A stretch of 23,486 bases of DNA from a virus (IMGVR_UViG_3300009409_001447:1-23486), one strand, 5' to 3'. Shown: positions 1 to 22,911, counted from the stretch's first letter. Made by a program: numbers and translations. Notes: generated by a model from the letters alone, not told the origin.

Positions 1-63
1 AACTTGTGGCGAATTAATATAGATCGTTACTTTAAAGAACGCACTCATTCTTTTTCTTCATAA
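1..63 (+). CDS. C-terminal tail of an unidentified gene (partial, cut by window edge)
   Basis: One + strand frame stays open from base 1 to a TAA at 61-63, giving 20 residues ending THSFSS; the other two + frames hit stops within the first 21 bases. It would run head-on into the halogenase-like gene and overlap its stop by 19 bases, as convergent genes also do at 12592-12611. The fragment is too short to recognise a family. It may be a real gene end or chance. Confidence 0.35.
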   Translation, partial: NLWRINIDRYFKERTHSFSS

Positions 64-1250
64 TATTTAAATTCATCATGATATAATCCTAATGTTGCCC
101 ATATGGCATCTGGATATAAATTAGTGTATTTGTTACTACGTTTTTTATAATTTTCCCATAATGATTTTCTAACATCAAAGTTACTATAATATTTCCAAAA
201 GTCAGTATCTGTTCGGTTGCTTAACATATAATGATGAAGAATATACTCTGAATTTTCCTTCCATAATTTCCTCATACTTCTATTATATATTGCTTGTTTA
301 TTATTTCTTTTAATACATTCAACTAATAACGTAATACTATATTGTGTCATAAACAATGCATTTGCTTCTAATGGATCAATAAAGCCATTTGCAAGACCTA
401 TAGCAACAACATCATCTTTCCAAGGATTAGTTAAGACATTAGGTCTCCATTTAAGTAACCTAGGTTCTTTATTCATAAAGGGGGTTCGATGTGCATTATA
501 CTCATTAAATTTCTTTAATGCTTTATCATCTGAAATATGTTTACTAGAATATACATATCCAGTTCCTATCCTGTTTGTTAAATCAATAACAAATTGCCAC
601 CCATGCTCTCGTGCAATTGATTTTGTATAATGCTCAATATTAGCATTATGTTCAAACGGACAAACCCATGCACGATCTACTAGATGATGATCGTATACTA
701 TTTCTGATTTATCTTTAACAAAGCGTCTAGCAAATCCTGTACAATCTACATATAAATCATATCCTTCTGGTAAGCTATCTAATGTTTCAATTCTGTGAAT
801 AACTTTTTTACAGTTATCTTTGACTACTTGCCCGGCTTGGTCTGCATCTAAATGATATGCAACAGATCGCCAAGCTCCTTTATGATACAAGTCATCATTA
901 ATTTGATCTTTTGTTTTATCCCCTGCTTTATATTCTTTATACCAATTTGAAAAAGCATCCTTTTCATTATACCAAAATGTAAAAGCAAAAGGATCACCGT
1001 TTGGCTTATCCCAGTTACTTTTTATATTTCCGTATTTGTGAATAGCATGACATTTAGACATCCATACATCTTCGTCTATTCCTATTTTATCAAAAAATGA
1101 TTTAATTTGTGGAAGGGTTGATTCGCCAACACTAATAGTTGGTATAGTATTGCTTTCAATTAATGTAATTTCAGCATCAGGTAAAAACTTTTCCATATAG
1201 CCTGCACACCACCAACCTGTTGTTCCTCCACCTATAATTGCTATTTTCAT
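45..1250 (-). CDS. Flavin-dependent tryptophan halogenase-like protein
   Basis: 401 residues, against roughly 500-540 for characterised tryptophan halogenases. Residues 7-14 (GGGTTGWW) are the N-terminal FAD-binding GxGxxG of the family and VGEST at 41-45 follows in the usual place. K72 and K77 match the AxKxxIK-like region holding the family's catalytic lysine. GFIDPLEAN at 289-297 matches the GFxxPLEST flavin/halide loop, keeping the Glu but changing the Ser-Thr-Gly that lines the chloride site to Ala-Asn-Ala. The fingerprint WxWxIP is degenerate (WQFVID, 218-223), followed by a family-like GTGYVYSS. The fold assignment is strong; halogenation itself is doubtful and another flavin oxidation is possible. 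It is the last gene of the leftward operon, with an ATGA overlap to the upstream hydroxylase gene. Related genes are known from marine T4-like phages. No reductase partner is visible. Confidence 0.82.
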   Translation of the reverse strand: MKIAIIGGGTTGWWCAGYMEKFLPDAEITLIESNTIPTISVGESTLPQIKSFFDKIGIDEDVWMSKCHAIHKYGNIKSNWDKPNGDPFAFTFWYNEKDAFSNWYKEYKAGDKTKDQINDDLYHKGAWRSVAYHLDADQAGQVVKDNCKKVIHRIETLDSLPEGYDLYVDCTGFARRFVKDKSEIVYDHHLVDRAWVCPFEHNANIEHYTKSIAREHGWQFVIDLTNRIGTGYVYSSKHISDDKALKKFNEYNAHRTPFMNKEPRLLKWRPNVLTNPWKDDVVAIGLANGFIDPLEANALFMTQYSITLLVECIKRNNKQAIYNRSMRKLWKENSEYILHHYMLSNRTDTDFWKYYSNFDVRKSLWENYKKRSNKYTNLYPDAIWATLGLYHDEFKYYEEKE

Positions 1251-1951
1251 AATGCTAATATATCTAAAATTTTAGTTTCGTCAACTCTAGTTAAAAAATG
1301 AGCTCTGTCAGTTTTACCTAGATTTTCTGTGCCATGATAAGCATTAGTATTTAAGATATAAACTTTACCAACTTTCATATTATACTTCTCTTCTCTATCT
1401 TTTCCAAAACAAAAAACTGCCTCTTCATTTGTTTCTAAAGGTATATGTAATTTCTTTACACTACTATCTTTATGTGTTTTAATTTCTGCACCTGGTCCAT
1501 GTACTGTAATAATACATTGTTTAAAACTTTCTTCTCCTAGCATTTCAATTAAGTTATTCATATAACCAAACCGATACTTAGGCAATATATTACATTTATC
1601 ATAAAATTCTGGATCTAATGTTTCAGGAAACATATCTATATTAGCTTGACTAGGAGGCGGCAATGGTTCATACTTTTCAAGCGGCCATGCTAATGTGTAT
1701 CCGCTGATAGGTCCGCAATAATAACCACAGTAACCTAAATCCATATATTGTTTGCTAACTTCTACATTTAGTCTATCAGGGAAGTTATAAAAATCAAAAA
1801 ACGTATGATTAAAATTTTCCTTTACGGAGGCATAATATTGCTGAAGTTTTTCAACATCAAGATCACAGTTTAACTCTATGGCGCCCCAATGCTCTTCTTC
1901 ATATAACATTTTCCAACCAATGTCTTTAGGATCATAGTTTTTAATTATCAT
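1247..1951 (-). CDS. 2-oxoglutarate/Fe(II) oxygenase, Asp/Asn beta-hydroxylase-like
   Basis: 234 residues. The C-terminal half has the double-stranded beta-helix signature: H160-x-D162 in THKDSS as the proximal iron ligands, the strand KLHIPL, distal H206 in YHGTEN, and R216 ten residues later as the expected 2-oxoglutarate-binding Arg. This layout is typical of the aspartyl/asparaginyl beta-hydroxylase family (Asp_Arg_Hydrox). The N-terminal part (about 1-110) is specific to this group and contains AIELN.DLD (24-32), also seen in the paralogue at 3082-3834. A strong ribosome binding site (AGAGGA, about 6 bases upstream) supports the ATG at 1951. It overlaps both neighbours by ATGA-type junctions, so translation is probably coupled. 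The substrate is not predictable; a cytoplasmic peptide, amino acid or amino-acid-like metabolite is plausible. Confidence 0.82.
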   Translation of the reverse strand: MIIKNYDPKDIGWKMLYEEEHWGAIELNCDLDVEKLQQYYASVKENFNHTFFDFYNFPDRLNVEVSKQYMDLGYCGYYCGPISGYTLAWPLEKYEPLPPPSQANIDMFPETLDPEFYDKCNILPKYRFGYMNNLIEMLGEESFKQCIITVHGPGAEIKTHKDSSVKKLHIPLETNEEAVFCFGKDREEKYNMKVGKVYILNTNAYHGTENLGKTDRAHFLTRVDETKILDILAL

Positions 1952-2538
1952 ATTAATTCCTCTTTGTATTTAAGTAGTTCAGCTTCCTTGTCCTTAGGAA
2001 CCTTAAAAAACAAATGTACTCTATCTGATTCACCTTCATTATGTGTACCATGCGGTATGCTAGTATTAACAAGAGTCATACGTCCATCAGCAGGTAATAC
2101 ATATCTTCTATTAGGTTCAAATTTAAAAAACGCTTTACTATTTGTTCTAATTGGAATGTGTATTTTTAAATACTCATCTGTATCTTTATGAAAGTTAATT
2201 AATGCTCCTGGCGGATGTACACTTACACTAAATTGGTGTGCAAATGGAAATTTATCCTGTAACTTCTTTGCTAATCCAAACATTAACTTTGTATCTCTAT
2301 ATTCATATTTTTCTTCTTTAGTAATGTTATACGGAGGACAAGGTTTAGTTAGGTCTTCTAAATTACTTTGTAATGCCCAACCGGTCACTCCTTTAAGTTT
2401 ATGCCCCCCAACACCTTCTTCTTCGGTACCTTTCCATGCCCATTTCATATCCTTATGCTGGTCTTGAAGCTGTATATAAAACTGTCGTAGATCATTTATA
2501 TCTATCTTAGGCTTTAGTATTTTAAGATCGCTGTTCAT
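1948..2538 (-). CDS. 2-oxoglutarate/Fe(II) oxygenase, Asp/Asn beta-hydroxylase-like
   Basis: 196 residues, the shortest of the five hydroxylase paralogues in this operon. Iron ligands are H117-x-D119 (NFHKDT) and H163 (IPHGTHNEG), with R173 exactly ten residues after the distal His as the presumed 2-oxoglutarate contact. The strand KIHIPIRTNS follows the HxD pair, as in the relatives at 3082-3834 and 3824-4483. The N-terminal region (about 1-100) is shorter and different, so substrate choice probably differs. AAGGA lies about 6 bases upstream of the ATG at 2538. The gene overlaps the SDR-like gene by 17 bases and the next hydroxylase by 4. The catalytic residues are complete, so an active enzyme is likely. 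Confidence 0.82.
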   Translation of the reverse strand: MNSDLKILKPKIDINDLRQFYIQLQDQHKDMKWAWKGTEEEGVGGHKLKGVTGWALQSNLEDLTKPCPPYNITKEEKYEYRDTKLMFGLAKKLQDKFPFAHQFSVSVHPPGALINFHKDTDEYLKIHIPIRTNSKAFFKFEPNRRYVLPADGRMTLVNTSIPHGTHNEGESDRVHLFFKVPKDKEAELLKYKEELI

Positions 2539-3085
2539 CTACTATCCTTTTTATCTTATCTTTTTTCCAAGCATCATAGCTTTCAATATAGTGTTTAAAG
2601 TCAACGTTTGCTACTGTAGGATTTTCAAACCAAAAATCTAATACTTTGCTAAACTCTGTTTGACTCATTCCTTTGCCATCTTTTTCTACTTCACTTATTG
2701 TCATATGAAATAGATTTGTATATATATTTAATGTCTCAATAGGTAGCATTTTACATCTTTGCTTTAAAGCACGTTTTACTTTGGCATACTTTTCATCAGT
2801 ATCAAAGTCTCCAGCAATACTACCTATACAGATAATATATTTTACTTTACCATATACTGCATTTAAAAGCCTTACTTGGAAGTCATCTATACAACTAGCA
2901 TTTATAAATATATCATTCTTTAATATTTCACTTACAATAGCGTCAAAATTCTTATTAAAATCATAGCCGGTTTCTCTACTTAATTGTGTCACCTTATAGT
3001 CAGCAAAATAATCATGTAACCAGTTAAGTATGTAACTACCCGAATGCCTAATACCTTTTCGACTACCTGTAATTGCTACGTTCAT
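2522..3085 (-). CDS. Short SDR-like (Rossmann-fold) oxidoreductase
   Basis: 187 residues, shorter than the usual 240-260 of classical short-chain dehydrogenases. The start MNVAITGSRKGI matches the TGxxxGI nucleotide-binding loop. INAS (61-64) matches the NAG-like segment, and S89 (CIGS), Y100 and K104 (YxxxK) reproduce the catalytic Ser-Tyr-Lys set. The C-terminal substrate-binding part is reduced. NAD(P)-dependent oxidation or reduction of a hydroxyl/keto group is the family role; the substrate is unknown. A clear AAGGA sits about 9 bases upstream of the ATG. It lies between hydroxylase genes with overlaps on both sides, so it may act on a hydroxylated product. A paralogue with the same Tyr100/Lys104 numbering is at 12592-13143. 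Confidence 0.7.
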   Translation of the reverse strand: MNVAITGSRKGIRHSGSYILNWLHDYFADYKVTQLSRETGYDFNKNFDAIVSEILKNDIFINASCIDDFQVRLLNAVYGKVKYIICIGSIAGDFDTDEKYAKVKRALKQRCKMLPIETLNIYTNLFHMTISEVEKDGKGMSQTEFSKVLDFWFENPTVANVDFKHYIESYDAWKKDKIKRIVDEQRS

Positions 3086-3834
3086 ACGGTTATTTCCTTA
3101 TTAAGTATCTTTAATAAATTTTCGTGGGTAGGTTTAGTTTGTATATGTACTCTACTCTCTTTGCTTTTATTAATTGTACCGTGTGGAATTGCGGCATTTA
3201 TTACATACGCCTTTCCAACTTTCATATGGTATTCTCTTTCTAAATTTTCTCCATATAAGAATAATGCATCTTCATTGCTATTAATAGGTATATGCAATCT
3301 TTGTACATCTGGTCCATCAATATGTTTCTCTAAAACTACTTTAGATTCATGCAATCTGATACTAGTATCTCTCCAAACAGCTTCGCCTAATTTGTTATAT
3401 AAGTCATTAAAATATCCAAACTTAAATTTTTCTTGCACTAATTTTTCTTTAGGATCAATTAACTCGGGATATAAGTCTTGTCTACCTGCCCACTTTGGTG
3501 TGCAAGGAATATCTTTTTCACAGTACCAACTAACTTCCATTACTAATACTTCTTCAGGTTTTTTAAACTGATCTTTAATATAACTTATAATATGATACCC
3601 TTCATCATATACTCCCCTGGTTTTAGGATTTGCATATCCTTCAAATGCTTTATCGATATTTTTTAAATGATATTTTTCTTTTAAATATTCTTCGTTGCGC
3701 CAACTAAAATAAAGATTATTGTATTGTTCGTCTACATCATTATACCATCGTTGTAAACTAAGAATATCTAAATTCCAATCAAGTTCAATTAGATCCCATT
3801 TAGTACTATTTAAATATTCTAAGCTATATTTCAT
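3082..3834 (-). CDS. 2-oxoglutarate/Fe(II) oxygenase, Asp/Asn beta-hydroxylase-like
   Basis: 250 residues from the start chosen here. The frame is open to an ATG at 3852, but that has no ribosome binding site, whereas the ATG at 3834 has AAGG 9 bases upstream and overlaps the previous gene by only 11 bases. Iron ligands are H171-x-D173 (KHIDG) and H218 (IPHGTINKS), with R228 ten residues on. The N-terminus contains LIELDWNLD, matching AIELNCDLD of the hydroxylase at 1247-1951; LYPELIDP also resembles MFPETLDP there, so these two are the closest pair and probably arose by duplication. The substrate is unknown. It overlaps the SDR-like gene by 4 bases. Confidence 0.8.
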   Translation of the reverse strand: MKYSLEYLNSTKWDLIELDWNLDILSLQRWYNDVDEQYNNLYFSWRNEEYLKEKYHLKNIDKAFEGYANPKTRGVYDEGYHIISYIKDQFKKPEEVLVMEVSWYCEKDIPCTPKWAGRQDLYPELIDPKEKLVQEKFKFGYFNDLYNKLGEAVWRDTSIRLHESKVVLEKHIDGPDVQRLHIPINSNEDALFLYGENLEREYHMKVGKAYVINAAIPHGTINKSKESRVHIQTKPTHENLLKILNKEITV

Positions 3835-4483
3835 CTGCCCATACCTTACCATATAAGTGTATTCTATCTGTACTACCTTTGTTTTCTACACTATGTGGAA
3901 TAGTTGTATTAACAAGATATGCCCAGCCTGGTTCCATATGAAATTCTTCGTCCCCTATAATCCAATTACTATCTTTATTTGTATGTATAGGTATATGGAC
4001 TCTAATTTTATCTGGACTATCTTGATGTGTAATTAATTTAGTGCCTGGGGTGTGAATTGTTACTAACCACTTCTTACTACGCATTGGTAACCGATTAACA
4101 AGTTCTAATCCGTAACCTGTAAAACACTTACGAGGATTTAGTTCATCATTATCATTATCTTTATATTCTTCTTTTGCACACCCTTGTTCAAATGGTTTAG
4201 GCCCTGGTTCATCACTATTCCAACAAAGTGTATAATATGCTGTATCGTCAGGAAGATAATGACCTGTTTTTGCTTCAGGGTCAACAATAGGAAACTTCCA
4301 TACATGAGTATTATCACCAATAACAAACTTCCAGTCAGCGTAGTTTTTTTCTAACTCTGCAAACCAAGTTTGTATTTTATCTACATCAACTTTAAACAGT
4401 TTTTTAACTTTGAAACCTAAATCAACAGGTGAATGGGTTTCAATATACTGTTTAAAATCTTGGGTGTGTTGTTTGTTTTCCAT
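3824..4483 (-). CDS. 2-oxoglutarate/Fe(II) oxygenase, Asp/Asn beta-hydroxylase-like
   Basis: 219 residues with complete catalytic layout: H153-x-D155 in ITHQDS, the strand RVHIPIHTN, distal H197 in IPHSVENKG and R207 ten residues later. The N-terminal segment is distinct from the other paralogues and carries an acidic run (KDNDNDE, 108-114). The ATG at 4483 lies inside the end of the upstream 487-residue gene (32-base overlap), with GAGAG about 7 bases upstream as the likely ribosome binding site. As with its neighbours, the family chemistry is hydroxylation driven by 2-oxoglutarate and oxygen; the target cannot be read from sequence. Confidence 0.82.
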   Translation of the reverse strand: MENKQHTQDFKQYIETHSPVDLGFKVKKLFKVDVDKIQTWFAELEKNYADWKFVIGDNTHVWKFPIVDPEAKTGHYLPDDTAYYTLCWNSDEPGPKPFEQGCAKEEYKDNDNDELNPRKCFTGYGLELVNRLPMRSKKWLVTIHTPGTKLITHQDSPDKIRVHIPIHTNKDSNWIIGDEEFHMEPGWAYLVNTTIPHSVENKGSTDRIHLYGKVWADEI

Positions 4484-5915
4484 TCCTAACTCTCTCGGTC
4501 ATATCTACAGAAACATAATCATGACCGTATAATATTAAATCTTCTGGTATTAATGATTCAAATGCTTTCCATTTTTCTTCTAATACCTCTGGTTCGATAT
4601 TCCAATGTAACATTTCACTTGACCAGATATTGGTAGTCCATAATACTTTTGTACCTGTCACACTACTTACCTTATCAAACAATTGATATGGTTTATTAAC
4701 AATATCTACAATATGAAACTCGTGTTTTAAATTTTTATACCTATCCCATAGCGTTTTAAATGCTTCTTTACCACCATGTTCAGCAACTTCTTGTTGCCAA
4801 TATGACTCGTAATTGCCTCTATACGTTGAGGAGAAGTTGTATTCTAGGTCGTGTTCTAGTAACCATTCATGTAAATCGTAGCCATCCCACGTCTCTAATA
4901 GATGTTTTTTGTAATTTAAACTTGCTTCGCACCAGTCAAAATAATGTATTTGCGTTCCTTCATGAAAGCCATTTGCATTTAAAATTGCAAGTGGTTTAAA
5001 TCCTGCGGCCGCACTAAACAATGCATCGATAGGTTTAGTTGTACGTACACCTTCACCACTAAGTGTTTCTGTATTAAATGCATACACCCTATCTTTTTCT
5101 ATTTCTTCTTGGTATGCTAATTTTCTTAACCAGCCTCGTTGGGCCTGATTAGTTAACTTATCAACTGTTAACGATTGCTTATTATACCAAACTGATTCTA
5201 ATTTTTCTGTATCAGAATATGGATATAAAAATACTTTACAAGCTCGCATATCATTGTCTAAATTGTCAATACGGATATTCTTTTTACAAGCAATGTCAAT
5301 CCAATTACTTCCGTCACTAGTTATGACATGATTAGTACTTCCTTCAGCACCTTCTATCCATGCAGGAGTATAGTTACTATGGATAGTTTCTTCACTTAAT
5401 TTATAATTTTTTAAATTTTGTTTCCTGTCCCAAAAGAATCCTATTTCATCAAACGGAGGCTTACCTAGTTTATTCCAAGTATTTAAATTAACAAACAAAT
5501 ATTGTCTATGCAATCCTGGATATGCATCTGTAATAAAACGATGCTGTCCTTTCTTATCCATAACATGAGCTATTACAAAAAAATTTGGATTCTTTTTTGC
5601 ATATTCTAAACTTTGTACTATAAGACTTTGCCCTCGAAACAACAATAGGCCTTGACAAGCAACCATGCAATATTCCTTACCCTGTTGTACTGCGTTATCT
5701 AATATATCTTTAACACTATTATGTGATCCTATATAATCACACAGGCCTGCTTTCACCATACGATTGATATAGAAGTACGTCATATCAAGGGTGCGTTTAT
5801 TAACAATTTTACTATTAATGTCTCTACTAATATTAAGAATACCTATAGCTACAGTACTAGGTACTCGAAGTTGTTCATAATATCTATCAACAGTAATACT
5901 ATTCCAGTCTTTCAT
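4452..5915 (-). CDS. Unknown 487-residue protein, possibly glycosyltransferase-like in its N-terminal half
   Basis: I do not recognise this gene securely. The frame is open further upstream, to 5972, but the ATG at 5915 follows the previous gene's TGA by one base (TGATATG) and has GAGA upstream, so I choose it. Residues about 15-165 look like an alpha/beta domain: CMVACQGLLL (83-92), then FFVIAHVMD (112-120) and LFVNLNTWNKLGKPPF (140-155). That order recalls GT-A type transferases that scan a donor site, but no clear DxD is present. The second half has a hydrophobic-loop region AAAGFKPLAILNA (302-314), an aromatic FDWCEASLNYKKHLLETWDG segment (326-345) and a WTTNIWSSE segment near the C-terminus, suggesting a second alpha/beta domain. 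No signal peptide or membrane segment is seen. Position between hydroxylase genes suggests a role in the same pathway. Confidence 0.6.
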   Translation of the reverse strand: MKDWNSITVDRYYEQLRVPSTVAIGILNISRDINSKIVNKRTLDMTYFYINRMVKAGLCDYIGSHNSVKDILDNAVQQGKEYCMVACQGLLLFRGQSLIVQSLEYAKKNPNFFVIAHVMDKKGQHRFITDAYPGLHRQYLFVNLNTWNKLGKPPFDEIGFFWDRKQNLKNYKLSEETIHSNYTPAWIEGAEGSTNHVITSDGSNWIDIACKKNIRIDNLDNDMRACKVFLYPYSDTEKLESVWYNKQSLTVDKLTNQAQRGWLRKLAYQEEIEKDRVYAFNTETLSGEGVRTTKPIDALFSAAAGFKPLAILNANGFHEGTQIHYFDWCEASLNYKKHLLETWDGYDLHEWLLEHDLEYNFSSTYRGNYESYWQQEVAEHGGKEAFKTLWDRYKNLKHEFHIVDIVNKPYQLFDKVSSVTGTKVLWTTNIWSSEMLHWNIEPEVLEEKWKAFESLIPEDLILYGHDYVSVDMTERVRNGKQTTHPRF

Positions 5916-5916
5916 A

Positions 5917-6615
5917 TCAATCTCTATTTGTAAAATAACTTTCACGTAATACGTAAAAGAAATCTCTAACACGGCGTCCTAACTCATAATGTATAATCAT
6001 ATGAATCCTTGGTTTATCACTAGTGTTCCAGACACTATGTACGTTACTAATGTCCATTAAAAAAGCACTACCTTCATCTTTAAACGGAACACGCCCTTTA
6101 TCTTTTAATGCAAAATTACATCCTTCTGGATTATTTAAACTAATATTACAAACACTTAATCGTTTTTCATGATCTTTGCGATCTTGATGCGGCAATATAT
6201 ATCCACCTGGTTCAAGTAACATAAAGCGTACACGATTTAAATATTCAGCTGGCCAAACATCCGTTAAAAACTTTTTAGTTACAGGACATTCATTTGCCAC
6301 CCAAGTCCAATCTAATTGGTTAAGTGTATCTTGTCTATCGCCATATGTATTAAGACTTTGAGTGTCGTCATTAACTCCATGTAGTGTTAAGCTCTTCCAA
6401 CCTTTCCCATAAGTATCCTCTCTATGAGTATAAAATTTATCACTTAATGCTTCGGCTTCTTTATACATGTCTTGCCAAGGTTGATTATCTAATGCACTAA
6501 GATGGAAATATGGCCAGCCGCTTTCCATAACTATCCATTTAGGATCAAATACTTCAGGATACTTCTGTTGTAATACAGTATTGTTTTTGGAATGGAATTT
6601 TTCTAAGTTAATCAT
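5917..6615 (-). CDS. 2-oxoglutarate/Fe(II) oxygenase, Asp/Asn beta-hydroxylase-like
   Basis: 232 residues. H143-x-D145 (LPHQDRKDH), distal H193 (SNVHSVWNTS) and R203 ten residues later give the full iron and 2-oxoglutarate set. It keeps the segment SVCNISLNNPEGC after the HxD pair, closer to the classical aspartyl/asparaginyl beta-hydroxylase pattern than the four downstream paralogues, which have an HIPI-type strand there. It is the first gene of the leftward operon, starting 59 bases from the divergent radical SAM gene at 6675. TTAG precedes the ATG, with no strong ribosome binding site. Active hydroxylase chemistry is likely; the substrate is unknown. Confidence 0.82.
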   Translation of the reverse strand: MINLEKFHSKNNTVLQQKYPEVFDPKWIVMESGWPYFHLSALDNQPWQDMYKEAEALSDKFYTHREDTYGKGWKSLTLHGVNDDTQSLNTYGDRQDTLNQLDWTWVANECPVTKKFLTDVWPAEYLNRVRFMLLEPGGYILPHQDRKDHEKRLSVCNISLNNPEGCNFALKDKGRVPFKDEGSAFLMDISNVHSVWNTSDKPRIHMIIHYELGRRVRDFFYVLRESYFTNRD

Positions 6616-6652
6616 CTAACAATATTTATCTGCCAGCTTAATTAAATACGCA

Positions 6653-6674: not shown

Positions 6675-7661
6675 ATGCCATTCTTAAAAATAGAAGAACT
6701 TAAGACTCTTATTATAGACTTTACAAGCCATTGTAATGCTATGTGTGGCAATTGTAGTCGTAATATTTCAGGTGTTGACGTTAATCCTAATATGCCATTA
6801 GACCATATGAGTCTACGTACTTGGAAGAAAATAATTGACAATAGCACTTATGTTGATGAAATAATTTTTAATGGCAGTTATGGTGATGCTATAATGAATC
6901 CTAATCTATTAGAAGCATTAGAATATGCTAGTTCAAAGAAAATTAGTATTATGATTCATACTAACGGTGGTATTGGGAAACCTGAATTATATGTTAAACT
7001 TGCAACCGTTTTAAAAAAATTTAAACAGCCTAGTGGTATAACTTGGAGTATTGACGGATTGGAAGATACTAATCATTTATATCGAAGAGGTGTTATATGG
7101 CAAAGAATTATAGACAATGCACAAGCATTTATTAATGCCGGCGGATTAGCTCGTTGGCGTATGTTAGTTTTTGATCACAACGCACATCAATTAAAAGAAT
7201 GTGAACAACTTGCATTTAGTATGGGATTTAAAAAGTTTGATATTAATGGAGGACATACTTTTAGTGCTATTAATAGTATAATAGGTAAAGCTGTAGAAAA
7301 GTTTAAAGCAAATAAAAAAGAAGAAGCACGTACTATTGCATATAATAAAAGTTATTTAGATAACGTAGAACGTGTAAAAGGATTATTAGAAAAAGGATTT
7401 GATAAGAGTCAGATTACTTGTAAGTGGCAAAAGAAACGTAAAGTACAAATAAGTCACATAGGTGAAGTATTACCTTGTTGTTACTTATTAACTGACAGGT
7501 ATCCTAGATATCCCGACAGTCCTTATGCTATAGAACAAAAAGATATAAAATGGCCAAATATAAACACAGAATCTTTAAAAGATATTGTACAAGGAGAAAC
7601 TCTTACATATCCAAAAGATAATAGATTTAAAATTTGCGAGGTAACCTGCGGTGAAGTGTAA
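6675..7661 (+). CDS. Radical SAM protein with C-terminal SPASM-like cysteines
   Basis: 328 residues. C20-x3-C24-x2-C27 (CNAMCGNC) is the radical SAM [4Fe-4S] site close to the N-terminus. The usual GGEP is replaced by NGSYGDAIMNP (66-76), matching the CGNLGDPMI of the paralogue at 16845-17843. IHTNG (94-98) and WSIDGLEDT (124-132) are further core elements shared with that paralogue. C249, C268-C269, C321 and C325 form a SPASM-type auxiliary cluster region. Family members cleave SAM to a 5'-deoxyadenosyl radical and often modify peptides or peptide-like substrates. It is the first gene of the rightward operon and overlaps the next by 11 bases. The substrate is not known. Confidence 0.88.
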   Translation: MPFLKIEELKTLIIDFTSHCNAMCGNCSRNISGVDVNPNMPLDHMSLRTWKKIIDNSTYVDEIIFNGSYGDAIMNPNLLEALEYASSKKISIMIHTNGGIGKPELYVKLATVLKKFKQPSGITWSIDGLEDTNHLYRRGVIWQRIIDNAQAFINAGGLARWRMLVFDHNAHQLKECEQLAFSMGFKKFDINGGHTFSAINSIIGKAVEKFKANKKEEARTIAYNKSYLDNVERVKGLLEKGFDKSQITCKWQKKRKVQISHIGEVLPCCYLLTDRYPRYPDSPYAIEQKDIKWPNINTESLKDIVQGETLTYPKDNRFKICEVTCGEV

Positions 7662-14042: not shown

Positions 14043-14692
14043 TAGTTCATTGTATTCTTAATAATAATATCATGTGTTCTTTCATTTAACTTAACAGTTA
14101 GTATTAATGCATATAACCCATCACTAAAACTAAACACACTATGGTCTAATTGGAAATTTACAAAATATAAAAACCCTGGATCTGGATAAAACGGCTTACC
14201 GTCTAGCATATGAACAAAGTTTTCCGGTTTACAATTACCAAATACACATAACAGTCTAAAATATTCTGGTCCAAGGCCTGGGAAATCTCTATGAGGTGGG
14301 AAAAATCCACCTTTATCAATTCTTAGTAAATGTACTCTGCCAATGTCCGGAGCAAATTCATCTACTACCTTTTTTAAATCAGGTATAGCATGGTAAACAT
14401 CAGTCGGCGTTGTGAAATTTTCTTCTTTCATATCAGCATTGTTATATTCTTGCATATATCCAAAGCTGTTTAAATGATAATTGTCCATTACGTCGCCGGA
14501 ATGACTTGTAATAGGTAATCCCCATCTATTGTTTACAGTATCTTTAACAGCATTATAAGGACACCAGTTATTTTCAAACTGTTTAAGTTGGTGGAGTACT
14601 TCATATCCGTTTATGTTAAATTTTAGTTTTGATGTTTGCCCTAAATTACATAAACTACTATACAAGTAAGCTCGTCTTTGTTTTTCATTCAT
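14042..14692 (-). CDS. 2OG/Fe(II) hydroxylase-like protein lacking the usual distal Arg
   Basis: 216 residues. The metal triad is H134-x-D136 (PPHRDF) and H184 (LDHSVFS). In the five hydroxylase paralogues of the left operon an Arg lies ten residues after the distal His; here that position is Y194 (GLYALIL). R146 after the HxD pair might substitute, or the co-substrate differs. The N-terminal region contains CPYNAVKD and SHSGDVMDN segments not seen in the other paralogues. It is the only hydroxylase-like gene in the right operon, placed between twitch and SPASM radical SAM genes with 8-base and 1-base (TAATG) overlaps. The fold is fairly secure, the activity less so. Confidence 0.7.
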   Translation of the reverse strand: MNEKQRRAYLYSSLCNLGQTSKLKFNINGYEVLHQLKQFENNWCPYNAVKDTVNNRWGLPITSHSGDVMDNYHLNSFGYMQEYNNADMKEENFTTPTDVYHAIPDLKKVVDEFAPDIGRVHLLRIDKGGFFPPHRDFPGLGPEYFRLLCVFGNCKPENFVHMLDGKPFYPDPGFLYFVNFQLDHSVFSFSDGLYALILTVKLNERTHDIIIKNTMN

Positions 14693-15995: not shown

Positions 15996-16852
15996 ATCAT
16001 TCTCGATATATTAAAATATAGGAAATCATGTGTCATATCAAGTTCTACTAATTCTATATCTGTTAACGTTTTATAGTTAGACAACATTAAAGTCCAGTCT
16101 ATTCTATTTTCCCATACTGCTGGCATAACAAGTTTTCCTACTAAAAGGTATCCTATTGCTAAATGTGAACTTATACTAGGACCTGCTATATTTTTTTCAT
16201 ACCACGTAACAAATTGATTTAATTTAAAATATGGTTCTATATCAGAAGGACGAAAAAGCATGTAGCCTTGTGCTTTAATTCTATCTTCGGGTTGTAACTG
16301 TCCATCTGTAATAGCTTCAATATCATTATCTGATGCTACTTCTAACCAATGCTTACCTTTATATGTATAATTCATACATAAGTCGCCAAAGTCTCGATCT
16401 GCTTTAAAAAACAAATAATCTGATTGTTCTAAAGGAATATAATCTTCTTCATCAAATTGAAAATACGCATTTAAGCGAGGTTCATTACCGTGTTGCACTT
16501 TATACTGTTCATAACTATGAATAGCATCGTTAATTGTGTCCCACAACTCTCCTGTTATATCTGCTACATCTTGATGCAATTTGTTTAAGTCACTATTTTC
16601 TGTTATTTGTATTACTTCTAAATTATGTTTTACATTTATTCTTTTTATTAAATCATTAATATACGCTATTAAATTGTTCTTATCTTGTTCTGTAACAACA
16701 AAACTAGTATCACTAAGTAACTTAGATTTTCTCTTTATTGCATCTTTAACTATATTAAACCATTTAACAGCAGACTTATGACTATAAATTTTATAGAATA
16801 AACTTAACGTTTCTGCACCATTAGAAAATGTAATTTTAAGTCCGTTACTCAT
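15992..16852 (-). CDS. Unknown 286-residue protein between two radical SAM genes
   Basis: I cannot assign a family. Residues about 25-120 look largely helical, with NKLHQDV (90-96) inside a polar helix. The middle carries an acidic, aromatic stretch (FQFDEEDYIPLE, 131-142) and then DRDFGDLCMNYTYKGKHW (152-169), which reads as beta strands with a Gly-Asp turn. The C-terminal part has YLLVGKLVMP near 235-244 and ends in aromatic residues. No signal peptide, cysteine cluster motif or convincing membrane helix is present. The ATG overlaps the upstream radical SAM gene's stop by 8 bases, and its TGA overlaps the next radical SAM gene (ATGA). Tight coupling suggests a partner or substrate-binding protein of these enzymes. 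Confidence 0.6.
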   Translation of the reverse strand: MSNGLKITFSNGAETLSLFYKIYSHKSAVKWFNIVKDAIKRKSKLLSDTSFVVTEQDKNNLIAYINDLIKRINVKHNLEVIQITENSDLNKLHQDVADITGELWDTINDAIHSYEQYKVQHGNEPRLNAYFQFDEEDYIPLEQSDYLFFKADRDFGDLCMNYTYKGKHWLEVASDNDIEAITDGQLQPEDRIKAQGYMLFRPSDIEPYFKLNQFVTWYEKNIAGPSISSHLAIGYLLVGKLVMPAVWENRIDWTLMLSNYKTLTDIELVELDMTHDFLYFNISRMI

Positions 16853-17843
16853 GTTCTACCTTATCAAATTGACTATTAAGTTTATCAAAACTACCGCATT
16901 GTTTTGAACATTCTTTTAATCCTGTTGTTGTCCAACATCCACTAATATTATTAAAAAATCCACTATTAAATATTTCACGCAAACTTGCATCATGTAAATT
17001 AGGAAATCTTTTAATCTTTCCCATATACTCTATACGTACATCTGCCTCCTTAGGTGCCCATTCTAAATCTAACCAACAACAAGGTGAAACATTTCCAGTA
17101 GCACTTATATATAACATATTATCTGCTTTTGCTTTACAAGTAATAGTTGGTAGTAATTCACGTTCAGCCGTTTTTACTTTTGCAGTTATATCTTTGCTTC
17201 TCTTTGTAGGATAAAGAGTATTAACAACATTATAGTCATCATCAATTACATCTAATTTACCATCTCTAAATCTTGCAGAATGTTTCATTGCAAATGCTTT
17301 AAATCCTAACTCTTTGCTTAACTGCTCACACTTATCAACTTGATGTTCATTATGTTTAAAAACTAACATATCCCAACGAGCATTGCCTCCTGCACTAATA
17401 AACTCTTTTGCATTAGCAATAATTTTATCCCAGTTTGTGTTAATTCTGTATAAAGAATGCGTATCCTTTAATCCATCGATACCAAATATAACTGTAACAT
17501 TTATTTTTGCAAGAGCCTGCCACCATTCTATACTTCTACCACTACCGTTAGTATGCATTTGTAATCCCATATATGGATTATGCTTATACAGATAATTAAA
17601 AATTTCTAAAGTATCTTCGGCTATCATTGGATCACCTAAGTTACCACACATACTAAAATGATTTAATTGTTTAATAAAGTCAACATCAAACCACTTCATA
17701 AAATTTGTTAATGTAATTTCTTCTAAATCTACACCATCTCTTAACGGACCGCCTTGAATTCTTCTAGGACACATTGGGCAACGAGCTTGACACTTACTTG
17801 TTACCTCAAAGTGTATTGATTTAATTTCGTCTATATTATACAT
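16845..17843 (-). CDS. Radical SAM protein with C-terminal SPASM-like cysteines
   Basis: 332 residues. C18-x3-C22-x2-C25 (CQARCPMC) is the cluster site; CGNLGDPMI (66-74) replaces GGEP, MHTNG (96-100) and GIDGLKDTHSLYR (121-133) follow. C236, C255-C256, C312 and C316 are SPASM-type auxiliary ligands, with C303 as a possible extra. It shares with the protein at 6675-7661 the GLxDTxxLYR segment, the AGGxARWxMLVF-x-HNxHQ segment near 151-168 and the auxiliary layout, so the two are paralogues in separate operons. Overlaps of 8 bases on both sides indicate translational coupling with an SGNH hydrolase and the unknown 286-residue gene. Confidence 0.88.
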   Translation of the reverse strand: MYNIDEIKSIHFEVTSKCQARCPMCPRRIQGGPLRDGVDLEEITLTNFMKWFDVDFIKQLNHFSMCGNLGDPMIAEDTLEIFNYLYKHNPYMGLQMHTNGSGRSIEWWQALAKINVTVIFGIDGLKDTHSLYRINTNWDKIIANAKEFISAGGNARWDMLVFKHNEHQVDKCEQLSKELGFKAFAMKHSARFRDGKLDVIDDDYNVVNTLYPTKRSKDITAKVKTAERELLPTITCKAKADNMLYISATGNVSPCCWLDLEWAPKEADVRIEYMGKIKRFPNLHDASLREIFNSGFFNNISGCWTTTGLKECSKQCGSFDKLNSQFDKVEHE

Positions 17844-18612
17844 TCAAATTCTCAGCTATTCTTTCTGCAACGAGTCTTATAGTTTGACTGCCAGGATGAA
17901 TATCATCTCTTGCTTTGTCTGATATCTCAGGAAGAGGACTACCTAAATCATCGCACCCTATAACATTAGCAGTTTCCTGGAAGTAACTTGCTTCATAGTA
18001 TTCGGTGTCTTTCCATAACTGTTTACTAGTTAAACTAGCAAGTAAGGCATGTGTTTCTCCGTGTTCTTTAGACTTTGTCCAATGACCTATATAGTTATGT
18101 GGAGTTATGTTCCAAGGACCATAAAAAGTAACATCTTTACGATCATAATATACTGTTCGATCATATCCTGTCCAAAGATGCACTACGGCTTTTGGTGTTG
18201 GATAATTAGCACTTAAAATTATTGAGTTATGTAATGCGTATGTAATAGAACTTCCACCAACGCCCATATTAATTACAGGTCGATTAATTAAAGTAGATAA
18301 TTGACTGCTAATAGTATCAGCATCATCAACTCCAACGCCAAATACTGCACTACATCCAAATATAACTATTGATTCCGCCCAGTCAATATCTGCAAATTGT
18401 TTTGTTCGATAACTATGCTTATTAAGAGTATACCTAACTGACTTATTTCTATATTCCCAATCTTTAGATTTTGTCTTAAGATTTGTTTGATATAACTCAT
18501 TAGAATCTGTACCAAGGCTAGTAAAATTATTAATTACCTTATTGTTACCAGCAGTTGGTAGGAAACTTCCAGCTCTAATAGACTTTGGTATACTATTAAA
18601 AAGTTTTAACAT
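17836..18612 (-). CDS. SGNH/GDSL-type hydrolase-like protein
   Basis: 258 residues. IVIFGCSAVFGVG (82-94) matches the GDSxxxG block with S88 as likely nucleophile (GCS in place of GDS). NMGVGGSS (115-122) supplies the second-block Gly, and DDIHPG (236-241) the D-x-x-H dyad with D236 and H239. The third-block G-x-N-D is not clear (LWTGYDR, 146-152). An extra N-terminal region of about 75 residues has YTLNKHSYRT, often seen before such domains. Family members hydrolyse or transfer acyl groups, commonly on sugars or lipids. It starts on the TAATG end of the methyltransferase gene. A second SGNH protein lies at 20847-21677. Confidence 0.75.
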   Translation of the reverse strand: MLKLFNSIPKSIRAGSFLPTAGNNKVINNFTSLGTDSNELYQTNLKTKSKDWEYRNKSVRYTLNKHSYRTKQFADIDWAESIVIFGCSAVFGVGVDDADTISSQLSTLINRPVINMGVGGSSITYALHNSIILSANYPTPKAVVHLWTGYDRTVYYDRKDVTFYGPWNITPHNYIGHWTKSKEHGETHALLASLTSKQLWKDTEYYEASYFQETANVIGCDDLGSPLPEISDKARDDIHPGSQTIRLVAERIAENLNV

Positions 18613-19217
18613 TATTTACGACCTATAATCATATATCTATCATACTTAGGTAATTCTAATATACCTGAGTAAAGCTCTTTACTAATTTGTGCCTTCCATT
18701 TAAAGTCTTTTAGACTTTCTGAACAATTAATGTGCTCAGGATGAGATGAAAAATTGTTACTTTGTACAACTATCCACGTGTCATCTGGAACTTTTTCTAA
18801 CCAAGTATTATATTGTTCTTGTGTAAGATGCTCGCAACTTGTATTAATAACAATGTGTGGATCTTCTGTATATACATAATTACACATATCTTCTGTAACT
18901 GCATCAAATGAGCCGTCCATCTCATATGCTTTATTCATGCCCAACGCTATGTCCTTACACGCAGGGTCAATATCAATAGATCTAATATGTCGTACACCAA
19001 GCTCGCTATTAAAAAGCATTGAAGCCAAGATTCCATACCACCCTCCAAAGATAACTATTTTACTAGCTTCAGCATGATTAACCGAAGCGAGCGATTCACA
19101 TAACCAAACTTTACTATCAAGCTGACCATGCCAGAAACTTTCTAACACACGTTTATGATCGTCTGCATCTCTAATTGTGTCCATCCAATAAGCTATGTCA
19201 TTAATACTAATCTTCAT
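18612..19217 (-). CDS. Class I SAM-dependent methyltransferase-like protein
   Basis: 201 residues. IVIFGGWYG (54-62) fits motif I of the Rossmann methyltransferase fold, SIDIDP (80-85) motif II with D82 as the ribose-binding acid, AVTEDM (106-111) motif III, and HIVINTSCEHL (121-131) motif IV. Conservation is loose but in the right order and spacing. The protein has no recognisable substrate-specific domain. It overlaps the radical SAM gene upstream by 11 bases and the SGNH gene downstream by one base (TAATG). The methyl acceptor may be the product of neighbouring enzymes; this is inference from position. Confidence 0.72.
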   Translation of the reverse strand: MKISINDIAYWMDTIRDADDHKRVLESFWHGQLDSKVWLCESLASVNHAEASKIVIFGGWYGILASMLFNSELGVRHIRSIDIDPACKDIALGMNKAYEMDGSFDAVTEDMCNYVYTEDPHIVINTSCEHLTQEQYNTWLEKVPDDTWIVVQSNNFSSHPEHINCSESLKDFKWKAQISKELYSGILELPKYDRYMIIGRK

Positions 19218-20187
19218 ACACTAGCTCTTTTGGTATTTTGCTATCTGCACTACTTACACAAGTTGGTGTAATACAAACTTTACGTTCTTTAAATAAATTA
19301 AACCCTTTATCAATAGTACCCAACGGTTCGTCATGACAACTATAAGCACGTTTAACTTCGCCGCCTGGTTCGCGAATAATACAACTTTGGTATCCTGCAT
19401 TACACATCCACCCTTCAAATTTATTAAACTTATGAGCATTAAGTCTTTCTGCTTGGTCTAACTTATATTCTGTTCCTGCTTTATCGTATAATAACATCTG
19501 TTCTGTTTCTTGTTCCATTTCATTTTGCAATATTTCCCATTGTTTAGGACTGTATCCTTCAACTATTGCACTTGCTGTATCATTACTTTGTGGTTTTAAT
19601 GTAACATGTAATCCTTCGTTTTTAAACCTTACAGCTCTTTCGTAATATTCATCAAACATACTTGGAACCATAACTTGATTAATTGTAACTAATACTCCAT
19701 GTTCTTGTAGAAATATAAGTTTACCCATAAATTCTTTTTCATTAGAAAATTCTGCATGATAACTTGCTGTGATGCTTTTACGATCTAATCTATCCGTTGC
19801 TGTTAACCATTTATTCCACCAATTAAATCCTGGACTAGCATTAGTAGTCATGTGTATACTAAGGTATTCACTAACTGGTTCATTATATGCTTTAATTAAA
19901 TCTATTAAGCCTTTATATGCAGTAGGCTCGCCTCCACTAAAACTAAAATGAAACTTATCAAAGCTATTAGCTCTAGCTTGACTTTTAATTTGATCCATTG
20001 TTTGAATATACTGTTCAATAGGTCTGTGGTCTACAACTTTGCTTTTAGCATACGGCCAGCAATAGCTACAATTATAATTGCAAAATCTGCCTAAGATCCA
20101 ACTAACTGAAAAAACATTGTTTTCCAACATAGTTTTTTGTCCTAGTTTAACAATACCTAATTTGTTTATATCAACAATTTTCTGCAT
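19207..20187 (-). CDS. Radical SAM/SPASM protein
   Basis: 326 residues from the ATG at 20187; the frame also has a TTG one codon earlier, which I reject in favour of ATG. C36-x3-C40-x2-C43 (CNYNCSYC) is the radical SAM site and SGGEP at 84-88 follows. C262, C269, C284, C305 and C310 provide a SPASM-type auxiliary region (GWMCNAG, YSCHD, VCITPTC). It is paralogous to 13140-14042 through the VSW-x-L start, Y-x-PKQ and GW-x-C-x-AG segments. It overlaps the upstream glycosyltransferase-like gene by 17 bases and the methyltransferase gene by 11. The substrate is unknown. Confidence 0.88.
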   Translation of the reverse strand: MQKIVDINKLGIVKLGQKTMLENNVFSVSWILGRFCNYNCSYCWPYAKSKVVDHRPIEQYIQTMDQIKSQARANSFDKFHFSFSGGEPTAYKGLIDLIKAYNEPVSEYLSIHMTTNASPGFNWWNKWLTATDRLDRKSITASYHAEFSNEKEFMGKLIFLQEHGVLVTINQVMVPSMFDEYYERAVRFKNEGLHVTLKPQSNDTASAIVEGYSPKQWEILQNEMEQETEQMLLYDKAGTEYKLDQAERLNAHKFNKFEGWMCNAGYQSCIIREPGGEVKRAYSCHDEPLGTIDKGFNLFKERKVCITPTCVSSADSKIPKELVYED

Positions 20188-20854
20188 CAAACTTTTCTTT
20201 TAACCATTTATAATCATTAATTTTAAATAACGCTTTGATATTCCCTTTATTTGCTTCGCCATACTCTTTACCTGCACGAGCTCCTGCCATAGCATAGTCT
20301 CCGTTAGGTTTACCCATTCCTTCATTACACCATACCATCAACCGCATTTCAGTTTCTTCGTCTACTTGACCTCTAATAATTTTACTTGATAATTTAACAC
20401 ATTCTCTAAATCCACTCTTCCATGCATTAAATGGATCTGTATTAAATGCTGTAACATTGCTAATTTCTTCATGTGCAAAAAACTTATTGCTAATACTAGT
20501 TGTCATGTCTGGATTAGTAACATCCATATCTAGTGTTAATTGCTTTGGTAATAACTTTATACCACCATAGCCGTATTCTAAAAAGTTTACAGGATTTTGA
20601 CAACGCCACACATGAACTGCTTCCATATCCCATTCATTGGCAATGTAATCAAATTGCCATTCGTTTTTTAGTTTAGCATCACCGTCAACTACCCAAAACA
20701 TTTTTGTAAAACATTTTTTAGCCGCGGCTATATGAGCTTGATGTATACCTTCTACGCCATGCACACGCTTAGCCATCGGAAATCGTGCCTTTAACTCTGC
20801 ATAAACTTCATCTGCATTTGGTTCTTCGTAACTTATAAAAACAATATCATACAT
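20171..20854 (-). CDS. Glycosyltransferase-like protein (GT-A-like, tentative)
   Basis: 227 residues. The N-terminus DIVFISYEEPNAD (3-15) reads as a first beta strand and loop. GVEGIHQAHIAAAKKC (33-48) is a conserved-looking helix and MFWVVDGDA (52-60) contains a D-G-D at 57-59, in the place where GT-A transferases hold the metal-binding D-x-D after a hydrophobic strand. Similar proteins are common in marine phage genomes and usually carry no firm assignment. WRCQNPVN and GGIKLLPK (near 83-104) would form the acceptor region. It overlaps the SGNH gene upstream by 8 bases. Proximity to a UDP-sugar dehydrogenase-like gene supports sugar transfer, but this is inference. Confidence 0.6.
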   Translation of the reverse strand: MYDIVFISYEEPNADEVYAELKARFPMAKRVHGVEGIHQAHIAAAKKCFTKMFWVVDGDAKLKNEWQFDYIANEWDMEAVHVWRCQNPVNFLEYGYGGIKLLPKQLTLDMDVTNPDMTTSISNKFFAHEEISNVTAFNTDPFNAWKSGFRECVKLSSKIIRGQVDEETEMRLMVWCNEGMGKPNGDYAMAGARAGKEYGEANKGNIKALFKINDYKWLKEKFDAENC

Positions 20855-21677
20855 ACGGCTCTATCTCTTCTGCTAATTTTTTATGAAGTATCCGTCCTGG
20901 ATGGCCATTATCTGGAAAATCATCTGATGATGCCATATAATTTATAACCTCCTCATATTTGTTAACTTCTTCTTTAAACTCATCTGTATCTGCTAAATCT
21001 GGTCTTAACTGTTTAAGATCATTAATTGAATTCCACGATGTAAGTAACGGTATTTGCTTACCTAGTATTTTTTGTAACCAACCTTTATGAATGTGTTTAA
21101 TAAAAGTATAATTACTTTCTAGACCGTATGTTTCGCCCCAGCCTTCTATTAAAATAAAAGGAATTTTTAACTTATTATATATTGCTTGGGCTCCGTCAAA
21201 TGCAACCTTCATTAGCACTTCATTTAATTCAGCAATAGAGTTACATTTGTTAGTTTTACTAAATTTTAAATAATACTTATCTAGGTCCCATAATCCTGCG
21301 GCGCCTGATGTTGTATCTTGCTTGTGATTGCGACAAGGTTCTGTTAACATCCATATAATAACATCTGGTGTATAAAAAGTTGGTGATGTAAAAGGTGGTG
21401 CCAATCCCAATGCTTCTTCACCTCTAAAAATTGCTTCAAAATTGCCGGCTCCCCCAACACTAGAATTACAAGTAGCATGACCTTGTAATTCTAGAAAGTA
21501 TCCAAAGCCTGGATAAACTAGTTGGAAGGGTTTCGGTGAGTCGCCTTCTAAATACTTGTCTTGGTTATACGGTCTAAAGATAGTATTATCATTATTGTTA
21601 GCAACGCCAGGCCCGGGAGTAATTTGTCCCCATTCTCCTAATCCGTTACTATCGCCAATTATTAATATTTTTTTCAT
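20847..21677 (-). CDS. SGNH/GDSL hydrolase-like protein
   Basis: 276 residues. IIGDSNGLGEW (6-16) is a clean GDSxxxG block with S10 as nucleophile at the extreme N-terminus. NSSVGGAGN (71-79) provides the block-II Gly and a likely oxyanion Asn, and DNGHPG (256-261) is the D-x-x-H dyad (D256, H259). No signal peptide is present, so it would act in the cytoplasm. It is the second gene of the long leftward operon, joined to the dehydrogenase by an ATGA overlap. Esterase or acyl-transfer activity on a sugar is plausible from family knowledge and context; the substrate is unproven. Confidence 0.82.
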   Translation of the reverse strand: MKKILIIGDSNGLGEWGQITPGPGVANNNDNTIFRPYNQDKYLEGDSPKPFQLVYPGFGYFLELQGHATCNSSVGGAGNFEAIFRGEEALGLAPPFTSPTFYTPDVIIWMLTEPCRNHKQDTTSGAAGLWDLDKYYLKFSKTNKCNSIAELNEVLMKVAFDGAQAIYNKLKIPFILIEGWGETYGLESNYTFIKHIHKGWLQKILGKQIPLLTSWNSINDLKQLRPDLADTDEFKEEVNKYEEVINYMASSDDFPDNGHPGRILHKKLAEEIEPYV

Positions 21678-22846
21678 CTTGTATTTCCGTAATAAATTAC
21701 CTTATGTTTACTAGACGTATACTGTCTCCATGGATCAACAACGATGCTGTCGTCATTAAGTTTACAGTATAGCTCTGGATGAGCTAATAATACTACTGCA
21801 CTAAATGGTCCTAGGTCAGGACTAACTAACGGATCAACTTGCATACAAGCATAATCTATTTCTGCACAATAATATCCCACTAGTAAACTATAACTTCCAT
21901 CTATATATGGTACTCCTGGTTTATAACTAACTCCATTTAATAGTATTGGTAACTCATTTTCATGTGCTAGTTTAACCAACCGCTTAGCCATATTTCGAGC
22001 TTGTACTTCTCTAGCCTTTATTATAGCATCAAATAGATCATATTGCAAGTTTAATTTTTGAGCTAGAAATCGTAATGCAATATTATCCCTTGGATGACAT
22101 CCACCACCGTCACCTAATCCCGCTGTCATGTATTTTGAACTAATAAGTCGATTTGTACTTTTTGAAAGAGCGTTTGTGACTACATCAACATTAATATTCC
22201 CTTGCTTTTCTGCAACATCTTGGATCATATTAACAAATCCAATTTTCATACTAATAAATGTGTTATAAAAAACTTTAATACATTCGCATTCGTCCCAAGT
22301 ACCTATTTCATATCTTGGTTTATTTTCCATTATTGTTTTATAGAACGTTACTAATTGTTGTGCATCAGTAGTTGACTTTCCATCTTCAGTTCCAATAATT
22401 ACCATTTCAGGATTTACCATATCCCAAGCTACAGTACCCATAGCAATAAAATAAGGATTATATACAAAGCGAGTATTATTAATTAACGGAACAAAATGAT
22501 TCCGTGTTGTTCCAGGTAAAACAGTACTAATAAGAACTAGTAGTTGGTTCTTATTCATATGAACGTTAGCTTCTCTTAACACGTCTATAACAATTTCATA
22601 ATTAAAATCTTTGGGTTCTAAATGTGCAGAAGGGGTCCTACCATCATAGTCAGGATGGTGTGGCGTTGGTACTGAAACAAATACAATATCTCTATCTTGT
22701 ACTACTTCTTTAATAGTGTTTTTAATAGCTATTACTTTTGATTCTATGTCAATAATATCATACCCTGTTACATCATGTCCTTTTTCAGCAACAATTTCAG
22801 CACACGGTAACCCTAGTTTTCCTAATCCTATAAACCCAATCTTCAC
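21674..22846 (-). CDS. UDP-glucose/GDP-mannose dehydrogenase family protein
   Basis: 390 residues from GTG at 22846, with a strong AGGAGG five bases upstream. GLGKLGLP (7-14) is the NAD-binding loop, VSVPTP (58-63) and STVLPGTT (107-114) are typical family segments. K201 (FISMKIGF) and N195 match the conserved Lys and Asn of the active site, and GGGCHPRD (247-254) holds the nucleophilic C250 and D254. The Glu of the usual PEF-L motif is replaced by Tyr (NPYF, Y132). Enzymes of this family oxidise a nucleotide sugar twice to the uronate; the change at Y132 leaves the exact reaction open. First gene of the long leftward operon. Confidence 0.85.
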   Translation of the reverse strand: MKIGFIGLGKLGLPCAEIVAEKGHDVTGYDIIDIESKVIAIKNTIKEVVQDRDIVFVSVPTPHHPDYDGRTPSAHLEPKDFNYEIVIDVLREANVHMNKNQLLVLISTVLPGTTRNHFVPLINNTRFVYNPYFIAMGTVAWDMVNPEMVIIGTEDGKSTTDAQQLVTFYKTIMENKPRYEIGTWDECECIKVFYNTFISMKIGFVNMIQDVAEKQGNINVDVVTNALSKSTNRLISSKYMTAGLGDGGGCHPRDNIALRFLAQKLNLQYDLFDAIIKAREVQARNMAKRLVKLAHENELPILLNGVSYKPGVPYIDGSYSLLVGYYCAEIDYACMQVDPLVSPDLGPFSAVVLLAHPELYCKLNDDSIVVDPWRQYTSSKHKVIYYGNTR

Positions 22847-22858: not shown

Positions 22859-22872
22859 TCATTATATGCGTA

Positions 22873-22880: not shown

Positions 22881-22890
22881 CTACTACTGA

Positions 22891-22898: not shown

Positions 22899-22911
22899 GT
22901 GATTTTTATAT

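Follow-up and report, generated by a model that had tools for sequence, protein, structure and literature searches.

Gene content of the window

The record IMGVR_UViG_3300009409_001447 is a linear virus sequence, and the window analysed here spans the whole of its 23,486 bases. It contains 26 complete genes and the start of a further one (Table 1). Overlaps of 1-56 bases were found at 24 of the 26 gene junctions, as a preliminary description of this DNA had proposed for nearly all of them. The only two intergenic gaps, both divergent, lie at 6616-6674 (59 bases) and 22847-22911 (65 bases). The three operons suggested in that description are present as three complete runs of overlapping genes, to which the start of a fourth has to be added. 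No RNA families or tRNAs were detected in the window, the count of sigma-70 promoters and terminators was no higher than in shuffled sequence, and a strongly hydrophobic segment was absent from all 27 island proteins.

The segment 45-22846 had been described as a radical and oxidative tailoring cluster in a phage-like setting, and its coordinates agreed throughout with gene calls, Pfam searches and motif checks. Apart from the radical SAM proteins, 2OG oxygenase-like proteins and halogenase treated below, the window encodes two SDR-like, two SGNH-like and two propeller-like proteins, a methyltransferase-like, an APH-like and a GT-A-like protein and a UDP-sugar dehydrogenase.

Table 1. Genes and promoter motifs of the window, in order of position
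Feature	Assignment	Position	Strand	Remarks
Hal	Flavin-dependent halogenase family, 401 aa	45..1250	-	PF04820 E 1.9e-73; phrog_2928
OH1	Asp/Arg-hydroxylase-like 2OG oxygenase	1247..1951	-	PF05118 E 6e-10; HKD...H
OH2	Asp/Arg-hydroxylase-like	1948..2538	-	PF05118 E 2.5e-9; HKD...H
SDRa	SDR-like, YxxxK	2522..3085	-	Motifs alone; no Pfam match
OH3	Asp/Arg-hydroxylase-like	3082..3852	-	PF05118 below cut-off; HID...H; 30% identical to OH1
OH4	Asp/Arg-hydroxylase-like	3824..4483	-	PF05118 E 8e-13; HQD...H
X506	GT-A-like N-terminal half plus second domain	4452..5915	-	Start is conserved ATG at 5915 (15-sequence alignment)
OH5	Asp/Arg-hydroxylase-like	5917..6615	-	PF05118 E 3e-15; in 54/54 X506 loci
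RS1	Radical SAM with C-terminal SPASM	6675..7661	+	PF04055, PF13186; 31% identical to RS6
RS2	Twitch radical SAM	7651..8733	+	NF033640 230 bits; in 54/54 X506 loci
APH	Small APH/kinase-like C-lobe	8720..9160	+	HGDxxxxN, DWDN; PF01636 below cut-off
KelA	Propeller-like	9129..10364	+	PxGE-type motif repeated at 43-63 aa
KelB	Propeller-like, distant KelA paralogue	10354..11496	+	Seven motifs, 44-51 aa spacing
RS3	Twitch radical SAM	11493..12611	+	NF033640 226 bits
SDRb	SDR-like	12592..13143	-	Invariant Y100xxxK104 in alignment
RS4	Radical SAM, GGEP	13140..14042	-	PF04055 E 3.5e-13; in 54/54 X506 loci
OH6	2OG oxygenase-like	14042..14692	-	HRD...H; PDB 4p7w profile match E 0.007
RS5	Twitch radical SAM	14685..15995	-	NF033640 414 bits; strongly conserved, 62-95% identity in IMG/VR
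U286		15992..16852	-	No family match; clear orthologues mostly in close relatives
RS6	Radical SAM with SPASM, GNLGD	16845..17843	-	PF04055, PF13186
SGNa	SGNH-like	17836..18612	-	Motifs alone, GCS...DxxH
MT	Methyltransferase-like	18612..19217	-	Weak PRK14103 match; alignment
RS7	Radical SAM, GGEP	19207..20190	-	PF04055 E 2e-12
GTx	GT-A / nucleotidyltransferase fold	20171..20854	-	AF2 pLDDT 88.9
SGNb	SGNH-like	20847..21677	-	GDS...DxxH; alignment
UGD	UDP-glucose/GDP-mannose dehydrogenase family	21674..22846	-	PF03721, PF00984; phrog_9148 E 4e-94; first gene of long operon
TATAAATA	Late-type promoter motif, divergent gene (E191)	22873..22880	+	Conserved in relatives
CATAAATA	Late-type promoter motif, UGD operon	22891..22898	-	Conserved in relatives
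E191	Start of conserved ~425-aa protein	22912..23484	+	Truncated by window end

Enzyme families and their motifs

The core motifs of the enzyme families are intact. All seven radical SAM proteins counted in the preliminary description matched PF04055 above cut-off and carried one CxxxCxxC motif. Twitch proteins were assigned with NF033640 at its curated cut-off of 170 bits, which was passed by RS2, RS3 and RS5, the three genes already placed in this subtype, and not by RS1, RS4, RS6 or RS7. The two other proposed subtypes held in part: of the two proteins described as GNxGDP-type, the one at 16845 has GNLGD and the one at 6675 carries the variant GSYGD, while the pair at 13140 and 19207 described as GGEP-SPASM has GGEP and no Pfam SPASM domain, only a Cys-rich tail seen by eye. 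A gene for an A-type Fe-S carrier occurs in 6 of 11 contigs of relatives, which fits a demand for maturing many Fe-S enzymes.

Asp/Arg hydroxylases were defined by a PF05118 score above 22.6 together with HxD...H. This score was exceeded by OH1, OH2, OH4 and OH5, OH3 reached 21.4 and OH6 had no Pfam match; HxD...H is present in all six proteins, OH3 and OH6 included, in keeping with the six 2OG/Fe(II) hydroxylase-like proteins originally listed. OH6 weakly matches L-proline cis-4-hydroxylase. PF05118 is not known to be of the TET/JBP type, which speaks against a DNA-base modification reading. Hal, earlier called flavin halogenase-like, belongs to the PF04820 family and is shorter than usual for it; it passes the PF04820 cut-off and has GxGxxG and the aligned active-site Lys and Glu, and it lacks the WxWxIP motif, with GWQFVID where GWQWQIP is expected. 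The viral halogenase VirX1 (PDB 6qgm) is of the same family (E 2e-36), differing in length (531 aa) and in that the WxWxIP motif of Hal is degenerate.

The AF2 model of X506, of moderate quality (pLDDT 72), gave weak GT-fold matches; the model of GTx is confident, and its Foldseek matches were HddC, ppGalNAc-T, WrtF and SunS (E ~1e-4 to 1e-3). Because the X506 fold also matches COLGALT1/LH3, collagen-like hydroxylation and glycosylation was considered and rejected, there being no run of at least eight Gly-X-Y repeats in the phage proteins examined. KelB is 22% identical to KelA (E 2e-13), and the motif region of APH is conserved across 14 homologues.

Several of these families could act on peptides or proteins directly, in a RiPP-like manner or as post-translational modification, with glycosylation secondary. 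Peptides are common substrates of SPASM and twitch radical SAM proteins, the PF05118 family takes in protein hydroxylases, and the propellers could dock a protein substrate. Such direct modification is nevertheless improbable: the 59 and 65 bases of non-coding DNA leave no space for a precursor peptide gene, none is present, and no NCBIfam peptide-maturase equivalog was found at cut-off. A RiPP cluster was rejected on the same two grounds.

Conservation and genomic setting in related phages

A search of IMG/VR with RS5 returned 52 loci at 62-95% identity, and genes were mapped on 25 of the corresponding contigs, nearly whole. A search with X506 found 93 loci, of which 80 were taken and 54 of these had ~10 kb on both flanks. 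All locus searches were seeded with island genes and covered at most 80 loci each, closer relatives being recovered best. On the 25 contigs, a recurrent order was seen: it begins with UGD-SGNb-GTx-RS7-RS6-MT-RS5-OH6-RS4, next comes the oppositely directed run RS3-KelB-KelA-APH-RS2-RS1, and OH5-X506-OH4-OH2-OH1-Hal completes it, with insertions and losses along the way. The relatives retain gene set and order at 50-95% identity. OH5, RS2, APH and RS4 all accompany X506 in each of the 54 two-flank loci; these represent 30 types at 90% X506 identity, so the count reflects more than copies of a single virus. Likewise, KelB, APH, RS4 and OH6 lie near KelA in 64 of 64 KelA loci, and OH6 sits between RS4 and RS5 in all 58 OH6 loci. 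The cluster is thus not a chance assembly, since its set and order recur across many relatives. Scattering of the genes without co-occurrence was not seen, and the coordinated cluster initially proposed is supported by the order kept in these contigs.

KelA, KelB, OH4 and OH1/OH2 behave as a module: of the 54 X506 loci, 46 have every one of them and 8 have none, and of the 30 types, 25 possess the module and 5 do not. OH6 was found in 40 of the 46 module-bearing loci; the sequence retrieved for the remaining six ends short of its place. The module genes, which are co-inherited, are spread over three distinct sites of the island. When module presence is mapped onto a tree of an independent flank gene, an HNH-type nuclease (12 genomes), three changes are needed, and a single origin is possible. 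In the module-lacking contigs G002 and G004, genes for a HAD phosphatase and a sugar-nucleotidyltransferase-like protein occur instead, and G002 has a TauD oxygenase after X506. On this reading, a constant core is combined with one or the other of two decoration sets. A set kept in order, with a sub-module at three places coming and going as a unit, points to one pathway and one product.

A 225-aa AMP-binding (ANL) protein encoded just past the Hal end also co-occurs with the module. Together with the resemblance of OH6 to a free-proline hydroxylase, it would suit a pathway for a diffusible halogenated amino-acid/sugar metabolite, the product predicted for a cluster with halogenase and 2OG enzymes in the jumbo cyanophage S-SSM6a (PMC7824862). 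Such a metabolite seems unlikely here, as the window has no carbamoyltransferase, NRPS, carrier protein or exporter and the halogenase gene was not found in some Kel-positive loci.

No close GenBank phage relative was found by DNA or by the X506, GTx or KelA proteins. GTDB genome contigs held no relatives of X506, and a bacterial origin of this protein was rejected on that result. Longer contigs of relatives, of up to 356 kb, encode the T4-type capsid protein Gp23, a DNA polymerase closest to those of Phosso (50%) and Atu_ph07 (45%), and a baseplate wedge closest to those of Phosso and SCTP-2 (35.6%). On these matches, which come from the relatives' contigs and not from the window, the island carriers, which are water-borne phages, are classed as T4-type jumbo myoviruses nearest to Phosso and Atu_ph07. 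The data support the island as one conserved, lineage-specific unit of jumbo T4-type phages with sugar-pathway genes in its core.

In the relatives, the UGD side of the island adjoins genes for a baseplate hub, wedge, tail lysozyme, a 4,906-aa virion protein and tail fibres. On the Hal side, a gene whose product has the receptor-binding N-terminal domain of Mtd is followed by nuclease, exonuclease and DNA polymerase genes. Distances of X506, RS4, RS5, APH and KelA broadly track those of nuclease, exonuclease, polymerase and wedge (Mantel r 0.5-0.97); those of RS2 and OH5 do not, the OH5 figure being affected by paralogues (37% matches in some contigs). Most of the core therefore looks inherited with the phage genome.

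The gap between UGD and E191 contains one motif copy per strand in nearly all relatives. The motif, NATAAATA, serves T4 and its marine T4-like relatives as late promoter. Of 332 cases, 239 lie no more than 90 bases upstream of a gene, against 16.7 expected. On contigs G002 and G001, the genes that it precedes are those for the baseplate wedge and a tail fibre, the Mtd-type gene and UGD; none was found upstream of the DNA polymerase or exonuclease. The divergent gap at 6616-6674 has no conserved copy in relatives; the late motif thus holds for the UGD operon only, and the other two runs are without a conserved one.

Proposed function and known counterparts

The reading favoured here, tentatively, is that the window forms the core of an island of the host-recognition region which is expressed late and tailors a glycoconjugate; its likeliest targets are receptor-binding or fibre proteins of the phage itself. 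It draws support from the sugar genes in the core (UGD, the GT-A-like GTx and X506). We infer a glycoconjugate product, whose structure and target are putative, as are the acceptor, the sugar and each of the reactions. A sugar acid nucleotide would come from UGD, and GTx and X506 would build the sugar or transfer it. The radical SAM, 2OG, methylating, SGNH and SDR enzymes would modify this sugar, with Hal adding a halogen in most members. The UGD operon would be switched on late, alongside the virion genes. The lack of a strongly hydrophobic segment in any island protein suggests cytosolic action, and nothing points to machinery for glycan export or polymerisation. Given the late timing and the neighbouring receptor-binding genes, virion proteins are the most probable acceptor, closely followed by the cell envelope. 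Counting against this reading, the fold matches of X506 and GTx are weak (TM 0.2-0.4), no island enzyme has a characterised close homologue, and a search for virion proteins that co-occur with the Kel/OH module brought up none, yielding only genes of the island and additional hydroxylase-like ones. Moreover, islands interpreted elsewhere as modifying the O-antigen typically lie next to fibre genes as well (PMC7029224).

The island might instead remodel the envelope glycan of the infected cell (LPS O-chain or capsule), blocking superinfection or changing adsorption, as has been proposed for glycosyltransferase-rich regions of pelagimyophages (PMC7029224) and P-SSM2-type clusters of cyanophages (PMC7824862). 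UGD, the SGNH-like proteins and the sugar genes are compatible with this function. It is possible but rather unlikely: the 27 proteins include no flippase, polymerase, initiating or membrane transferase or strongly hydrophobic segment, a late motif at UGD fits superinfection exclusion poorly, and gene order is conserved here whereas such islands are described as hypervariable (PMC7029224). Membership in the O-antigen or capsule assembly clusters was rejected for want of a membrane flippase, polymerase and initiating transferase.

Phage tailoring islands of similar flavour are already known; what is new is this gene set, conserved in order. In pelagimyophages, glycosyltransferases and radical SAM cassettes belong to a large island situated amid the tail-fibre genes (PMC7029224). 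The host recognition cluster of one of them, Mosig EXVC030M (MT647606), resembles the present island in having radical SAM, Asp/Arg hydroxylase, methyltransferase and sugar genes, including distant homologues of OH6 (34%), RS6 (26%) and MT (29%), and in its setting, given that the relatives' contigs place the present island among tail-fibre and receptor-binding genes as well. The pelagimyophage cluster is described as non-syntenic and hypervariable, whereas the island order is kept at 50-95% identity in a different phage family. The S-SSM6a cluster likewise combines a halogenase and several 2OG oxygenases with adjacent sugar-modifying genes in a jumbo phage; it differs in comprising ~10 genes with carbamoyltransferases, of which the window has none, and a HemK-like methylase, and the main text of its description names no radical SAM proteins (PMC7824862). 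For the Campylobacter phages CP220/CPt10 (PMC2853527) and the marine T4-like genome TARA_ERS488813_N000010 (PMC5332604), the sections consulted report 11-12 radical SAM genes per genome and describe no conserved hydroxylase/halogenase/propeller island. The literature searched contained no description of this exact gene set and no characterised pathway based on it, in agreement with the preliminary description.

The ~25 radical, oxidative and sugar enzymes probably act jointly to make an unusual decoration for phage fibres or the infected-cell surface. A more specific and doubtful proposal is that a vertically kept, late pathway of ~25-30 genes may equip virion receptor-binding proteins with a glycan of a new class, hydroxylated, halogenated and rearranged by radical SAM enzymes, with KelA and KelB as a scaffold for the hydroxylases or a substrate-docking pair. 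The island offers concrete enzyme candidates in three twitch radical SAM proteins, six hydroxylases and a short halogenase, next to X506 and KelA/KelB, families without known characterised relatives. Tailoring genes of phages are usually viewed as scattered, swappable cargo; here ~25 of them stay ordered in jumbo phages that have diverged and come from many samples, and they frame the question of whether their product is placed on the virion or on the cell.

Additional genes in and around the island

The accessory and neighbouring genes found in the IMG/VR relatives that carry the island are listed below, with coordinates in the frames L081, L082 and L083 (contig G002) or L373 (contig G026). 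Genes equal in size to hemC adjoin the methyltransferase-like gene MT in G005, G009, G014, G016, G017 and G024, and may be further copies; the Pfam search covered the G002 copy. In G002, which lacks the KelA/KelB/OH6/OH4/OH1-2 module, the aminotransferase is located close to the position normally occupied by the 2OG oxygenase-like gene OH6.

Features in and beside the island in relatives
Feature	Location	Match or setting
hemC, porphobilinogen deaminase	L083:8117-8956, G002	PF01379, E 1e-65; inserted in island
hemE, uroporphyrinogen decarboxylase	L082:12433-13374	PF01208, E 4.5e-71; in island flank
Class III aminotransferase	L083:10257-11378, G002	Acetylornithine/DAPA type by sequence
Second gene set	L082:14580-19775, G002; equivalents in other relatives	Adjoins island
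Virion structural protein, 4,906 aa	G002:7798-22518 (L081 from 7798, into L082)	phrog_10938
630-aa protein	L373:5900-7792, G026	B12-binding and radical SAM, both weak

Flanking genes

The second set encodes another protein similar to GTx (GT-A/nucleotidyltransferase fold), two more radical SAM proteins resembling the twitch-type RS5, and proteins of 306 and 292 aa. Several distant twitch-like radical SAM proteins also lie within one stretch of Vibrio jumbo phage K566. The 4,906-aa virion protein is encoded upstream of the tail-fibre genes, and the 630-aa protein directly beyond the Mtd-side end of the island.

The OH5/RS divergent gap

A GTTAAATATACTT-like string, conserved in the OH5/RS divergent gap of the window (6616-6674) and of several relatives, differs from the late-type promoter motif of the UGD/E191 gap and possibly represents another promoter class.
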